Origin: Candidatus Poribacteria bacterium
GTDB taxonomy: Bacteria > Poribacteria > WGA-4E > WGA-3G
DNA length: 64,000 bases
Direction: 5' to 3'
Assembly (NCBI GenBank): GCA_958295945.1
Contig: OY282386.1
Location: 1,054,001-1,118,000 of the forward strand
The position numbers were made by a program, and so were the translations under genes. Within the stretch, counting starts at the first letter, position 1; each line of letters begins with the position of its first letter. The notes beneath the pieces were generated by a model. It was not told the DNA's origin and did not search any database. It saw only the letters and a program-made list of their open reading frames with translations. Below, piece by piece: positions 24,396 to 31,362 of this stretch.

Positions 24396-24716
24396 ACATA
24401 TTTGGTAACCTACATTTCAAAACTGTTTATGTGACACATATTATAACGTAGGTAACTAACATAAGTCAAGTAAAAAAGCAATATATTTGGCACATTTTCA
24501 CTCTTTTGTGTATTTTCTTAGAACAATTGTATATATTTCTCTGGATGTTGCATTTTTGAGCATTTGGTTATCCTGAATTGATGTGTTTTCGTTGGTTGGT
24601 GAGAAGTTAGTGGCAAAATCTTTACACACCCCTATAAATATATTTGCATTTAAACATAAAACATGATAATATATTGTTCACAAGATATAAGAAAGACATT
24701 TCCGATTAAGAAGATT
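24396..24716. other. Intergenic DNA and possible promoter upstream of the trp leader
   Basis: AT-rich DNA without a gene. A dispersed repeat GAAGTTAGTGGCAAAATC...ACACACCC lies at about 24602-24631. TTGCAT (24644-24649) and GATAAT (24665-24670), 15 bp apart, are the best candidate -35/-10 boxes for the leader and operon that follow; the spacing is short, so this is tentative. Confidence 0.35.
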
Positions 24717-24812
24717 ATGATACATACACGTTCACACACTAGTTTGCGTAGAATCTCCAACGATTGGCATTGGTGGCGTTCCAAGACCAGTGAAGGGGTG
24801 TGCGCGCGCTAA
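24717..24812 (+). CDS. trpL: Tryptophan-operon leader peptide (attenuator)
   Basis: A 31-codon frame from ATG 24717 to TAA 24810-24812. Residues 16-21 read D-W-H-W-W-R: three tryptophan codons in four (24765-24776), with histidine between, in a short peptide where none is expected by chance. It lies 98 nt after this stop upstream of hisI-trpE-trpG, and an intrinsic terminator follows at 24848-24884. This is the arrangement of classical ribosome-mediated attenuation. The upstream AAGAAG is a weak ribosome site. RNA segments: CATTGGT (24768-24774, over the Trp codons) can pair with ACCAGTG (24786-24792); GTGTGC (24798-24803) can pair with GCACAC (24854-24859) in the terminator's 5' arm. Confidence 0.7.
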   Translation: MIHTRSHTSLRRISNDWHWWRSKTSEGVCAR

Positions 24813-24847
24813 CGGAATTGTTTTATTGTTTTGATGTTATCTGTAGA

Positions 24848-24884
24848 CCTTATGCACACAAACCTAAGTGGCATAGGGTTTTTT
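24848..24884 (+). terminator. Attenuator terminator before hisI-trpE-trpG
   Basis: CCTTATGCAC (24848-24857) pairs with GTGGCATAGGG (24868-24878), ten pairs with one bulge, followed directly by TTTTTT (24879-24884). This is a canonical intrinsic terminator, placed 25 nt before the hisI start and with no gene upstream on this strand except the Trp-rich leader. It should stop transcription when the leader is fully translated. Confidence 0.75.
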
Positions 24885-24909: not shown

Positions 24910-25290
24910 ATGAAAATTTTATCAGAATTGAAATATGACAGGGATGGGTTAGTCACCGCAGTAATTCAAGATCGCAAAAATAATGAAGTGCTGATGGTTG
25001 GTTATATGAACGTAGAAGCGATTGAACAGACCTTATCATCGGGTCGTGTATGCTTCTGGAGTCGCTCCCGACAAAAGTTGTGGATTAAGGGGGAGACTTC
25101 AGGGCACACGCAGACTGTCGAGTCAATCGCAGTCGATTGTGATGGTGATGCCTTGTTGATAAAGGTTGAGCAGAAGGTGGCTGCATGTCATACAGGCTAC
25201 CGTTCCTGCTTCTTTCGGGAAGTCTCCCCCGATGGTGAGTCAACAGAGGTCGTAGGTAAAAAGATATTTGATGCGGATGCGGTTTATTAG
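24910..25290 (+). CDS. hisI: Phosphoribosyl-AMP cyclohydrolase
   Basis: A 126-residue enzyme of histidine synthesis that opens the adenine ring of phosphoribosyl-AMP. Family motifs are all present: [17 protein letters not shown]-x-K-G-E-T-S-G-H, the metal-binding D-C-D-G-D, and the cysteines in [11 protein letters not shown] chose ATG 24910 because AGGAG lies just upstream; an in-frame start nine codons earlier has no such site. The phosphoribosyl-ATP pyrophosphohydrolase domain (HisE) is absent. It heads an operon with trpE and trpG behind a Trp attenuator, so a histidine gene appears to be under tryptophan control. Confidence 0.95.
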
Positions 25291-25412
25291 GAAACAATAT
25301 TCCTTGTTTTCGTTTCTTAGTATCAGATGTCTGGTCATTTATACCAAATATAGCTAAATGAATGTATTATTACAAACAATTACATGCTAAGGGGACGAAA
25401 AGGAGTTGGACA

Positions 25413-26915
25413 ATGTATTATCCTACATTGAAGGAATTTAGAGAGAAAGCGAAAGAGGGGAACACGATACCGGTATATCGTCCGATTTTGGCAGATATGG
25501 AGACACCGGTATCAGCATTCTACAAATTGATGCCTGACAAATACGCTTTCTTATTAGAAAGTGTTGAAGGTGGCGAACAAGTTGCCCGCTACTCATTTCT
25601 GGGTGGTCAACCATCAATACTGTTCCATACGAAAGGACATGAGGTGACCATTGAGTATTTGACGAAAGATGAGAAGGTATTTAAGGAATACGATGACCCG
25701 TTGAAAGCACTTGAAGAGGTGATGCATAGTTATCAACCTGTCAAAGTTGATGGACTCCCTGAATTCCACGGCGGTGCGGTCGGTTATATGACATACGATA
25801 TGGTGCGGTTCGTGGAAGAATTGCCCGATGATAATGAAGATGAACTGCAACTCCCCGACTCTTTTTTCATGATTGCAGAAACATTACTGATATTTGATCA
25901 CGTCAATCATCAGATTAAAGTTGTTGCAAACGCGCATATTGATGGAAATGTTGACGCAGCTTATGCCGATGCAATTGGAAAAATAGAGGCATTGGTTGAA
26001 AAACTGACAACTGTTTCTGACATATCTACATTTGGAAACATGGAACAGAATACAGAACACCATCCAGACCCGATACCAGATCCATATTCAAATTTCACGA
26101 AGTCTGACTATGAAGATGTGGTGAGGCGCGCTAAAGAATACATCGCGGCGGGTGACATTATTCAGGTCGTACCTTCACAACGGTTCAGTCGTCCTGTATC
26201 CGTTGACTCGTTCAATATTTATCGTGCATTACGAGTGGTGAATCCTTCACCTTATATGTATTATCTTAAGTGTAATGGCTTTGACATTGTAGGGGCTTCT
26301 CCTGAGATGATGGTACGGGTAGAGGATAGCATTGTCCAAACCATACCAATTGCTGGAACACGTCCGCGTGGGAAGACTACTGAAGAGGATCAGGCATTAG
26401 CGGAAGAACTTCTGACTGATCCTAAGGAACGTGCAGAACATGTCATGCTTGTGGATTTAGGGAGAAACGACCTCGGACGTGTATGTGAATACCATTCTGT
26501 CAAGGTTACTGATTTGATGATAATAGAACGGTTTTCACACGTGATGCACATCGTCTCACATGTTGTTGGAAGGTTACGTGAAAATTTATCTGCTTATGAT
26601 GTTATTCGCGCCTGTCTCCCTGCGGGTACACTCTCTGGTGCTCCAAAAATACGTGCAATGGAGATCATTGACGAACTGGAATCTACGCGTCGCGGACCCT
26701 ATGGAGGTGCGGTAGGCTATTTCAGTTTCTCTGGTAGTGCAGACACAGCAATTACTATCCGAACTGCAGTCATCAAAGATGGGACTGCTTATGTGCAAGC
26801 TGGTGGCGGAGTCGTTGCTGATTCAATACCTGAAAATGAATACTATGAAACCGTCAGCAAAGCATGGGCAATGCTCACTGCTATAGAAATGGCACAACAA
26901 GGTCTAATATTATAG
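25413..26915 (+). CDS. trpE: Anthranilate synthase component I
   Basis: A 500-residue chorismate-utilising enzyme: it forms anthranilate from chorismate with ammonia supplied by TrpG. The N-terminal L-L-E-S motif (in F-L-L-E-S-V-E-G-G) marks the tryptophan feedback site, so the enzyme should be allosterically inhibited. The C-terminal catalytic core shows I-A-G-T-R-P-R-G, the long D-L-G-R-N-D-L-G-R and [12 protein letters not shown] chose ATG 25413, 7 nt after AAGGAG; the frame is open 17 codons further. It is 122 bp after hisI and 10 bp before trpG. Confidence 0.96.
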
Positions 26916-26925
26916 GAGAGAAAAG

Positions 26926-27489
26926 ATGGTATTGATGATTGACAATTACGACTCATTTACCTACAATCTTGTACAATACCTCGGTGAACTGGGTGCGGAT
27001 TTAGAGGTACATCGCAGTCGGAAAATAGGATTAACTGAATTAGACGTTCTGGAACCTGAACGGATTGTGATTTCACCGGGACCTTGCACACCACGGGAAG
27101 CGGGGATTTCCAACGATGTGATAAGACACTATGCTGGGAAGGTGCCGATTTTAGGTGTGTGTCTTGGACATCAGTGTATCGGTGATGTGTTTGGTGGTGA
27201 AGTGGTGCGTGCTGATAGGCTGATGCATGGTAAGACATCAATGATAATGCATAATGAAAAAGAACTATTTGAGGGATTGGACAATCCGTTTGAAGCGACA
27301 CGTTACCACTCGTTGATTGTTAAGAAAGACACGTTGCCGGATTGTTTGGAAATCACGGCATGGACGGATGCGGATGAAATCATGGGGATTCGCCATAGAA
27401 CTTTGCCGATCTGGGGTGTTCAGTTTCATCCAGAATCTATTTTGACAACAGCCGGAAAGAGTCTATTAGGAAACTTTTTGACACTATAA
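26926..27489 (+). CDS. trpG: Anthranilate synthase glutamine amidotransferase component
   Basis: A 187-residue class I glutamine amidotransferase that supplies ammonia to TrpE (and possibly to aminodeoxychorismate synthase as PabA). The catalytic triad is visible: C79 in G-V-C-L-G-H-Q, and H168/E170 in F-H-P-E-S. The N-terminus [13 protein letters not shown] is typical. GGAGAG lies shortly before the ATG. It follows trpE by 10 bp. No trpD, C, F, B or A gene follows, so the pathway is split elsewhere in the genome. Confidence 0.95.
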
Positions 27490-27515: not shown

Positions 27516-28286
27516 ATGACATATTCAGAACAAAACAAAATACCCATGTCTGTTCTCGTTTCTTGGTCTTCAGGAAAAGATTCGGCTTGGGCATTACATA
27601 CATTACGTCAACAACCAGAAAAATACGAAGTGCGTGGTATTTTTACCACCGTCACAAAGACTTTTGATCGAGTTTCTATCCACTCAACACCTGCGTGGGT
27701 CTTGAAACAGCAGGCTGATAAACTCGGTGTGCCGTTGTATGAGATACCGATTCCATATCCGTGTTCAAATGAGATATACGAAGCAGCGATGCGTGAGTTC
27801 CTTGCTGAAGTGGAAGCATTACCTGAGAATTTGACTGCATCTCATTTTGCATTCGGCGATCTATTTCTTGAAGATATCCGCGCGTATCGTGAGGAGAAAC
27901 TGAGTGAAACAGGCTTCACACCGATATTTCCGGTTTGGGGTGAAGATACGACAATTCTTGCCAATAAGATGATTGCATCTGGTTTGCGTGCGATTGTCAC
28001 TGCTCTCAATCCTATCAAAGTCCCTGCTGATTTAGCTGGACGATGGTTTGATGCGGAACTCCTTATGGATTTACCTGATGGAGTGGATCCTCTCGGTGAA
28101 AATGGTGAGTTCCATACATGTGTTGTTGATGGTCCTATGTTCAGTTCTCCAGTTGCTGCGAAACCCGGTAAAATCGTGCAGAGAGATATTGTTTCTGCAT
28201 CCAAAGACGACGATGACAAAATCCACAGCAGCAACACCTCTCCTCCTACTTATGTGTATGCTGACGTTGTACCTCTGGACCTTTAG
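27516..28286 (+). CDS. Dph6-like ATP pyrophosphatase (adenine nucleotide alpha-hydrolase)
   Basis: A 256-residue PP-loop ATPase of the DUF71/Dph6 type. The PP-loop S-W-S-S-G-K-D-S-A-W is near residues 15-24, and E-x-H-T-C-V-V-D-G-P near residue 205-215 matches the end of these enzymes. Archaeal and eukaryotic relatives amidate diphthine; bacterial ones act on unknown substrates. Translation may begin at the second methionine (27546). It follows trpG by 26 bp and probably shares its transcript. The link with tryptophan synthesis is positional only. Confidence 0.8.
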   Translation: MTYSEQNKIPMSVLVSWSSGKDSAWALHTLRQQPEKYEVRGIFTTVTKTFDRVSIHSTPAWVLKQQADKLGVPLYEIPIPYPCSNEIYEAAMREFLAEVEALPENLTASHFAFGDLFLEDIRAYREEKLSETGFTPIFPVWGEDTTILANKMIASGLRAIVTALNPIKVPADLAGRWFDAELLMDLPDGVDPLGENGEFHTCVVDGPMFSSPVAAKPGKIVQRDIVSASKDDDDKIHSSNTSPPTYVYADVVPLDL

Positions 28287-28434: not shown

Positions 28435-31362
28435 ATGAAAAACAACGACACACAATTAATCCACCGTACTATTGATGGCGATGATTCTGCCTTTACGGAA
28501 CTTGTAGAGAAATATCAAAAACAGGTTCACGCACTTGTCTGGCGGAAGATTGGAGATTTTCATGCAGCTGAAGAGATTACACAGGATACATTTCTGAAGG
28601 CATATCAGAAACTCGGAACACTTAAGAAACCGCAACGTTTTGCAAGTTGGCTCTATGTGATTGCAGCGAACCGCTGCAACTCATGGTTGCATAAAAAGTA
28701 TACACGTAAGCGACTGTTGGAAGATACGGACATCACGCACCCTGAAGAAGTGACTTATTCTGAGTATGTGGTTGAGGAGAACGAACGGGTCACCGTAGAG
28801 ACACAACGCGATGTCGTCCAAAAGCTGCTTGCAAAGCTTGGGGAAAGTGAACGCACTGTTATGACATTGCATTACTTTGGAGAGATGTCGTGTGCGGAGA
28901 TCGGAGCATTCATGGGTGTATCGGCAAATACGGTGAAGAGTCGACTTCGGCGCGCACAGCAGCGTTTAAAGAAAGAAGAACCGATCATAAGAGAGGCTTT
29001 AGACAATTTCAAAATCACACCGAATCTGACAGAAAACATCATGCGTAAGATTTCACGTATTAAACCTGCTGTACCGTCCGGTAGCAAACCATTAGTCCCA
29101 TGGGCGGTTGCTGCTTCCACATTAGTAGTGGTGTTGTTGATGCTCGGTTTTGGAAATAGCAAATATCTAACGCGTTTTCAGAAACCTTATAGTTTAGATG
29201 CTACTGCAGAGATGACGGTAGAGATTGTTGATGCACCAGTCTCGAACTTAGAATCTAAGCCAGATGTGCGGACGCAAATAAGAAATACGAACGTATTAGC
29301 ACAGCTAATTGATCCTGAAGAGAAGCAAAATGATAATAGTACCACTGTATCTGAAGATATACAAACGGAGGAAACCGTGAAAGATTGGACACAATGGGAA
29401 TTACCGAAAAAAGCGAAAGTGCGTTTAGGTAAAGGTAAAGTTAATGGAATAAAATTCACTCCAGACGGCACACATTTAGCCGTTGAAACAGCCATCGGTG
29501 TTTGGCTTTACGATGCAAATACTGGTGAAGAAACTGCTTTATTTACAGAAATTGAAGGTGATAACCTAAGTTTTGACAGATCATACATCAATATGCTGGT
29601 TTCTCATATAGATGGCAACACCATTGAATGTCCAGGTGTAACTGGGAACAAGGACTTATGGAAATTAGAAGAAGACAGTTTGAAATCTATTCTACCGGAT
29701 CTGCGTAGGAGTAATAACGTGCTACAAATTAAAGCACAAAACATAATACTTGTTCATTCTGGGTGGAGTATGAATCTTCCGTGGCATGCGACAGCTGGTC
29801 TGTGGAATCTTGTTGATGAAGAAAACAAGTCAAATAATGTAAGAATGACTAAGAGGGAAATGGATATGCAGGTAGCAGTTTCACCAGATGAAAGATTCCT
29901 TGCGGCGGCACTTAGGAGTAAGTTTTCTGGTATAGAATATAAGATGCCTGCAATCCAGGTATGGGACAGAACCACTGGAAAGTGTGTATTCACAGTAGAA
30001 GAAACGAAGCGTGATATTGAAACATTAGTCTTTTCTCCCGATAGTCAAACACTTGCCTATGCTGACAGTTCCAATTTAGTTAAAATATGTGATGTTGAAA
30101 GTGGTTCGCTTCAGTATACATTTAGAGCTGCGGTTCCTTTCCAAACACTAGCATTTTCACCAGATTGTAGTCATCTTGTCAGTGGGAGTGTTGATGGAAT
30201 AGTGCGATTCTGGATAGTTAAGAAACGCGGAAAACACTCCATTTCTGACCGAGTCTTCAAAATCGCAGGCAAGTCTCAACCTTACAAAATGTTAAAAGGG
30301 CATGCAGAAAACTCAAAATTCGCTACAATAAACTTCTCCACAGATGGGAAAATGGTTGCAAGTGCAAATTCTGATGGGACTATCCGTTTGTGGGATACCG
30401 ATTCAGGCAATCAACAATTTACACTGACACAACACTCAGGATCGCAAACTGCATTGGCATTCAACACTAACAACATATCCGAACTGAAAGATGTTACTAA
30501 GAACACACTAACCAGTATTGGTTTGAGTAATTCTCATTTTTTCGTTTCTGTTTGGGACGCTGATAATGGCAATAGGCTTTCTTTTGATATGGTTAATAAA
30601 GCTAATCATATAGGTCCTGAAGTTGCCATATCACCAGATGGGAGTCTGTTTGTAATCCAGGACAATGTTGTCCGCTTATGGGATACCCAGTCAAAGAGTG
30701 TTTTATCGACAATAGGTGATGAAGAAAATTTTCGTTTTTTATCTAAAGTCATTTTTTCTCCTGATGGTAAACTGCTTGCAGCAAGTGCTCGTAAAGACAA
30801 TACTATACTAATATGGGATGTGCCTAACCGTAAAACTCGTTGTAGACTTGAGGGACATACGACCTATGTTTACAGCTTAGCATTTTCTCCTGATAACAAA
30901 ACTGTTATCACTTCAGGCTGGACAAATAAGGACGTAACAATTAGGTTGTGGGATACCGAGACCGGTGCAGTATTAGCATCTTTTTCAGATCAAGGTGCAG
31001 TCGCATTTGCACCAGATGGAAACACCTTTGTTGGAGGCACTCACCTTTATAGGTGGAATCCCACCACACTCACCTATGACCGTATAGTGCGATTGGAAGA
31101 TGTATCCATATCTAGACCTCCAACTGCAATGACATTTTCTCCAGATGGCTCAATTCTTCTAAGTGATAACAGGAATGGAATAATTCAATTACGAAATTCA
31201 ACTACTGGTAAAATCATTTCTAATCTGACAGGACATTCAAGTTGGATATCACAGTTTGTATTTTCTGAAGATGAAACAACTCTTGCTACAAGCGGCGGAG
31301 ATGGCACGATTCTTATGTGGGATTGGGATGAAGTCCTTGCAGATTTAAAGCTAGGTGAATAA
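28435..31362 (+). CDS. ECF sigma factor fused through a membrane helix to WD40 repeats
   Basis: A 975-residue protein. Residues 1-90 are sigma-70 region 2 (D-D-S-A-F-T-E-L-V, A-E-E-I-T-Q-D-T-F-L-K-A-Y, R-F-A-S-W-L-Y). Residues about 132-185 are region 4 with a helix-turn-helix (M-S-C-A-E-I-G-A-F-M-G-V-S). A single membrane helix lies near 222-242. Residues about 325-975 form a dozen WD40-like repeats. The sigma part should be cytoplasmic and the propeller outside, so it may sense an external signal without a separate anti-sigma factor. GGAGGTGATC, fully complementary to the usual 16S rRNA 3' end, precedes the ATG, predicting strong translation. The blade opening the propeller resembles the start of the protein at 35894-37807. 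Confidence 0.85.
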   Translation: MKNNDTQLIHRTIDGDDSAFTELVEKYQKQVHALVWRKIGDFHAAEEITQDTFLKAYQKLGTLKKPQRFASWLYVIAANRCNSWLHKKYTRKRLLEDTDITHPEEVTYSEYVVEENERVTVETQRDVVQKLLAKLGESERTVMTLHYFGEMSCAEIGAFMGVSANTVKSRLRRAQQRLKKEEPIIREALDNFKITPNLTENIMRKISRIKPAVPSGSKPLVPWAVAASTLVVVLLMLGFGNSKYLTRFQKPYSLDATAEMTVEIVDAPVSNLESKPDVRTQIRNTNVLAQLIDPEEKQNDNSTTVSEDIQTEETVKDWTQWELPKKAKVRLGKGKVNGIKFTPDGTHLAVETAIGVWLYDANTGEETALFTEIEGDNLSFDRSYINMLVSHIDGNTIECPGVTGNKDLWKLEEDSLKSILPDLRRSNNVLQIKAQNIILVHSGWSMNLPWHATAGLWNLVDEENKSNNVRMTKREMDMQVAVSPDERFLAAALRSKFSGIEYKMPAIQVWDRTTGKCVFTVEETKRDIETLVFSPDSQTLAYADSSNLVKICDVESGSLQYTFRAAVPFQTLAFSPDCSHLVSGSVDGIVRFWIVKKRGKHSISDRVFKIAGKSQPYKMLKGHAENSKFATINFSTDGKMVASANSDGTIRLWDTDSGNQQFTLTQHSGSQTALAFNTNNISELKDVTKNTLTSIGLSNSHFFVSVWDADNGNRLSFDMVNKANHIGPEVAISPDGSLFVIQDNVVRLWDTQSKSVLSTIGDEENFRFLSKVIFSPDGKLLAASARKDNTILIWDVPNRKTRCRLEGHTTYVYSLAFSPDNKTVITSGWTNKDVTIRLWDTETGAVLASFSDQGAVAFAPDGNTFVGGTHLYRWNPTTLTYDRIVRLEDVSISRPPTAMTFSPDGSILLSDNRNGIIQLRNSTTGKIISNLTGHSSWISQFVFSEDETTLATSGGDGTILMWDWDEVLADLKLGE

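Follow-up and report, generated by a model that had tools for sequence, protein, structure and literature searches.

How might an operon be controlled in which a histidine gene, hisI, stands ahead of the tryptophan genes trpE and trpG? The question is raised by a locus in the 5.34-Mb single-contig genome of a sponge-type bacterium of Candidatus Poribacteria, of which a stretch of 64,000 nucleotides (the window, hereafter) was analysed. An earlier note on this DNA had proposed that a short frame rich in Trp codons, followed by an intrinsic terminator, drives hisI-trpE-trpG by ribosome-mediated attenuation. The comparison presented here supports that proposal: a ribosome-mediated transcription attenuator very probably lies upstream of hisI-trpE-trpG. 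Among its components, a translated frame, a terminator, a pairing between the RNA segments named 2 and 3, a promoter and a phylum-wide distribution are established by comparison of sequences; that the ribosome stalls, which way the switch works and what the His codons do is what I infer from them.

The leader locus and its operon

The features on which the argument depends are the following.

24644..24672, + strand: predicted promoter, -35 TTGCAT, 17-nt spacer, -10 TAATAT (from the pattern and from relatives)
24717..24812, + strand: leader peptide frame, 31 codons and TAA (open frame kept in relatives)
24765..24776, + strand: putative regulatory codons TGG CAT TGG TGG (W17 H18 W19 W20), also segment 1
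24798..24803, + strand: segment 2, GTGTGC, the final codons of the leader frame (RNA word conserved, pairs with segment 3)
24846..24884, + strand: intrinsic terminator, made up of segments 3:4 with a run of six T (from fold and covariation)
24854..24859, + strand: segment 3, GCACAC, within the terminator 5' arm (covaries with segment 2, partly pairs with the 3' arm)
24910..25290, + strand: hisI, encoding phosphoribosyl-AMP cyclohydrolase, at the head of the operon (NCBIfam NF000768)
25413..26915, + strand: trpE (NCBIfam TIGR00564), start assignment probable
26926..27489, + strand: trpG (NCBIfam TIGR00566)

The leader frame runs from the ATG at 24717 to the TAA at 24810-24812 and translates as MIHTRSHTSLRRISNDWHWWRSKTSEGVCAR; its W17-H18-W19-W20 cluster is present as the earlier note had read it, with Trp codons starting at 24765, 24771 and 24774 and a His codon at 24768. 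The residue before W17 is D, not H, leaving H18 as the only His of the cluster. The two strands of the window together have 937 short ATG frames, and in no other do three Trp fall within four residues. Folded in isolation, the terminator hairpin (24846-24880, GACCTTATGCACACAAACCTAAGTGGCATAGGGTTTTTTG) reaches -16.8 kcal/mol and has 13 pairs interrupted by one bulge; the stem is thus somewhat longer than the 10 bp first quoted, while the six T (24879-24884), ending 25 nt before the hisI ATG at 24910, are as described. A simple terminator scan of the window did not have the hairpin at 24846-24884 among its calls. The single-sequence fold of the leader is unexceptional (z = -1.37), so that the case rests on comparison. 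The promoter pattern TTGCAT-17-TAATAT has one match in the window, against 0.05 expected by chance, and a similar -35/-10 pair occurs at the same place in most of 18 upstream regions from the same genus, which speaks against a transcription start downstream of the terminator.

NCBIfam agrees with the names given earlier to the three operon genes, and the hisI at 24910 is the sole copy in this genome. The trpE start is probably codon 18 of the frame that begins at 25362 (MYYPTLKEF), for the trpE of many relatives aligns only from residue 17-18 of that frame; the 17 codons upstream (25362-25412) are also open. Directly after trpG, positions 27516-28286 encode a diphthamide synthase-like ATP pyrophosphatase (PF01902), and further on a single frame (28435-31362) encodes WD40 repeats joined to a sigma-70 region 2 domain; sigma-like starts resembling this frame adjoin leader copies in relatives (L234, L237, L249).

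Conservation of the frame and of its RNA pairings

Upstream regions of hisI or trpE were collected from 60 relatives and from further genomes of the phylum. The earlier note had suggested aligning such leaders for conserved Trp codons and compensatory stem changes, and both are found: a short frame with a Trp cluster is present in almost every region collected, usually in the form H/N-W-H-W-W, and compensatory changes affect the terminator as well as the pairing of segments 2 and 3. A covariance model of the leader (A1, R1), built from 31 leaders, has a match in 77 of the 85 Poribacteria genomes, nearly every time ahead of hisI-trpE or trpE, and in 54 of the 56 genomes with completeness of at least 90% and contamination of at most 5%; in the genome of the window it matches at hisI-trpE-trpG only. 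A few lineages (g3, g9 and, as regards hisI-trpE, G051) lack the leader at this place, and hisI-trpE at 12 loci outside the known Poribacteria set shows no clustered-Trp leader. Over 23 codons around the Trp cluster, frame 0 is open in 71/71 leaders and the other two frames in 45 and 7, a conservation which suggests that the frame is translated. In two leaders (L152 and L158, of G075 and G081) a 39-nt in-frame insertion splits the Trp cluster, the frame and the flanking Trp codons being kept; the insertion holds a short inverted repeat.

Some further variation was observed around the element. Extra bases, some of them repeated or palindromic, lie between terminator and hisI in many relatives (L005, L006, L008, L009, L024, L026, L033, L038, L057), in L057 as tandem GTGTGTACGGCACGCGGAGCG units. 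One g2 genome carries a second hisI-trpE, of the f4 type, on a separate contig (G033:C149, L028), which is probably assembly contamination.

The terminator stem carries two-sided compensatory changes at 8 of 11 pairs, with 97.7% of the cells of the alignment paired; its covariation score is 0.450 against 0.202 in shuffled alignments (0/500 shuffles as high), and sliding the alignment out of register leaves at most 54% paired. The antiterminator would join GUGUGC(C), where the frame ends, to (G)GCAYAC of the terminator's 5' arm. The complementarity of GTGTGC (24798-24803) and GCACAC (24854-24859), noticed earlier in the window, recurs in relatives and covaries there: 437 of 444 cells (98.4%) are paired in register, and the two words change jointly (GTGTGC/GCACAC, GTATGC/GCATAC, GCGTGC/GCATGC, ATGTGC/GCACAT, GTGTGT/ACACAT). 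Across 20 lineages the 2:3 duplex averages -22.0 kcal/mol when each segment 2 meets the segment 3 of its own lineage, against -17.7 (sd 0.67) when partners are exchanged; none of 20,000 permutations matches the own-lineage pairing, and a shuffled segment 2 gives -13.6. The word GTGTGC is kept while its reading frame differs between genera (GVCAR, GSVRSNG and SVPLLR), and being constant as RNA but read in different frames it appears to act as RNA and not as peptide.

Run without hints, RNAalifold predicts two helices, the terminator and one in which GUGC of segment 2 pairs with GCAU from the Trp and His codons. This suggests a putative 1:2 stem, which belongs to the consensus fold and is nearly invariant, with almost no covariation. 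The stem first proposed for this role, CATTGGT:ACCAGTG, can pair in the window but is missing from most relatives and was rejected in favour of the consensus GCAU:GUGC.

The spacing of these segments bears on what a ribosome would cover. Counted from the first Trp codon, segment 2 begins 24-37 nt downstream (the two insertion leaders excluded), and it lies between 23 nt before and 7 nt after the stop codon; judged by an ordinary ribosome footprint, a ribosome at the stop would cover segment 2 and one stalled at Trp would not. Simulations of a stalled ribosome in which the RNA does not yet extend to segment 4 pair the terminator arm with segment 2 in 70/70 cases, and with the ribosome at the stop the terminator folds in 71/72. 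The full-length thermodynamic fold of the window's stalled state still favours the terminator; since the terminator is favoured at equilibrium once segment 4 is made, the switch would have to be kinetic, depending on the order of synthesis.

The mechanism proposed is as follows. The RNA would begin near 24680 and a ribosome would start on the 31-codon leader. With ample charged tRNA-Trp, and presumably tRNA-His too, it would reach the stop codon and cover segment 2, leaving segments 3 and 4 to form the terminator, and transcription would end before hisI. When either tRNA is scarce, the ribosome would stall some 20-30 nt further upstream, at the W-H-W-W codons, and the free segment 2 would pair with segment 3 once this is made, allowing transcription into hisI-trpE-trpG.

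Two accounts would dispense with codon-dependent attenuation. It might be supposed that the nascent HWHWW peptide, whose motif is strongly conserved, binds free tryptophan and thereby arrests its own ribosome, in the manner of TnaC. This is very improbable: the residues that follow the motif depend on the frame (VCAR, SVRSNG, SVPLLR), the RNA word staying constant; single replacements within it (HRHWW, HWRWW) are tolerated, as is the 13-codon insertion inside the cluster, and free Trp should switch biosynthetic genes off, not on. Alternatively, the hairpin could be a constitutive terminator of an upstream transcript accompanied by a chance frame, as might be hinted by the R1-like terminator pieces that related genomes carry at a few further sites. 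Such a coincidence is scarcely credible for an intergenic element with its own conserved promoter, in which frame, terminator and 2:3 pairing are conserved jointly across the phylum, with covariation.

Copies of parts of the element were also observed elsewhere. Seven derived leader and terminator copies (FKRWHNKRPNCLWGVCA; L229, L230, L232, L234, L235, L236, L242) have lost most Trp codons, and in related genomes a conserved gene for an MsbA-like ABC exporter often follows them at 200-340 nt; L239, L243, L247 and L249 are terminator-only pieces.

His codons and operon content

The earlier note had placed a histidine gene under Trp control. The Trp attenuation holds; as a description of the leader it is probably incomplete, as His codons accompany the leaders that precede hisI. 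A WHW motif occurs in 62 of 70 leaders before hisI (11 of 14 genera) and in 0 of 7 leaders without hisI, the latter preceding trpE, trpD, trpS or an aro-trpC pair. At the level of genera, the difference in His within the Trp core gives p = 0.0004 (Mann-Whitney), a value that stands for about three independent contrasts (g6, the other classes and the trpD leader of G051) and is confounded with phylogeny.

In G060 and G061, which represent other classes of the phylum, related leaders precede several trp genes: NWCWWW stands before trpE-trpG-trpS-trpD, FWRWWW before trpE-trpG-trpD, YWRWYW before an aro aldolase-trpC pair and IWRWW before trpS. In G051, HWFWWW precedes trpD. NCBIfam confirmed the aldolase, both trpS and the trpD of G051, the remaining gene names being read from sequence. 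In 17 Poribacteria genomes hisD or trpC has no convincing Trp- or His-rich leader, a weak result given that several trpC starts are misplaced.

His codons among Trp codons before hisI, largely absent elsewhere, point to joint sensing of Trp and His. The reading on balance preferred is therefore that of a bivalent attenuator, in which Trp and His codons are interleaved and shortage of either amino acid would open hisI together with trpE-trpG, the His codons tracking hisI and the leader codons being tuned to operon content. A simpler account disputes the His part alone: the attenuator would respond to Trp only, its His codons being incidental or retained for the required pairing of TGGCATTGG with segment 2; hisI would be carried along. 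RNAalifold does pair the GCAU of TGGCAT with GUGC, so that the middle His may be partly held by 1:2 pairing; g17 carries hisI and yet its leader, HICWWPWW, has no His adjoining the Trp codons; and the leader of the window itself has D before W17. Pairing does not account, on the other hand, for the His before W17, which is unused by the 1:2 stem and kept in 57 of 69 leaders, nor for the other residues (C, R, F) which leaders without hisI carry between their Trp codons. The genus g6 tells against the simpler account as well: placed by the TrpE tree within a set of lineages that carry hisI, it has lost both hisI from the leader locus (elsewhere it has a distant copy of about 46% identity) and the HWH motif, its leaders being RWWYTSWG and RWRHI. 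Control by Trp only is accordingly a serious but doubtful alternative, and the bivalent attenuator is retained as the modestly favoured reading.

Relation to known attenuators

The leader resembles trpL of E. coli and other Proteobacteria in its short frame with clustered Trp codons, in a terminator before trpE, in the alternative 2:3 and 3:4 helices and in a stop codon beside segment 2. Unlike in trpL, the frame of the Poribacteria leader contains segment 2, its Trp codons have His codons between them and the first gene is hisI; there is also no Rfam-detectable similarity, the Rfam search (Trp_leader, His_leader and T-box included) giving no match at gathering threshold or up to E = 10. By its features the leader is of the ribosome-mediated attenuator kind; it is a member of no Rfam leader family. 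TrpR, which goes with the proteobacterial comparison, was searched for and not found; the TRAP protein (PF02081) was found in 0 of 5 genomes, a B. subtilis control being positive. Since the searches gave neither TRAP nor TrpR nor a T-box, control by Trp may rest mainly on attenuation here.

Leaders that read more than one amino acid are known from the thr operon (Thr/Ile) and the ilv operons (Ile/Val/Leu). The Poribacteria leader would share with them regulatory codons for more than one amino acid, but those of the thr and ilv leaders belong to one pathway. The trpE upstream regions L065, L102, L085 and L107 (from Deltaproteobacteria/Syntrophobacterales and one other proteobacterium) match R1 weakly (E 3e-5 to 0.1). 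The deltaproteobacterial ones (L065, L102, L085) have, as in Poribacteria, a Trp-rich leader before trpE (NWWWW/NWWWQ), yet their Trp runs are pure and no hisI precedes trpE.

The trp attenuators of Corynebacterium and Streptomyces have leader peptides with two or three UGG codons and also occur before trpS (PMC1262725). With Poribacteria they have in common this use before trpS and a complementary triple used by antiterminator and terminator, whereas the conserved words differ, gGCC-rGCy-GGCC there and GUGUGC(C)-(G)GCAYAC here; the accessible part of that source reports no His codons in their leaders, unlike those of Poribacteria. According to a survey of 2010, which itself added Firmicutes, demonstrations of leader-peptide attenuation had until then been confined to Proteobacteria and Actinobacteria (PMC2965389). 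A search of the literature, mostly outside subscription papers, found no report of leader-peptide attenuation in Poribacteria, nor of a Trp and His leader or of attenuation of hisI/trpE.

To sum up, a trp attenuator would here span a whole uncultured phylum, the Poribacteria, in which several trp genes are placed under its control. Should the His codons prove regulatory, a single leader would couple two pathways that have their use of PRPP in common, and the leaders with and without hisI would constitute a natural test of how such codons track the genes of an operon.
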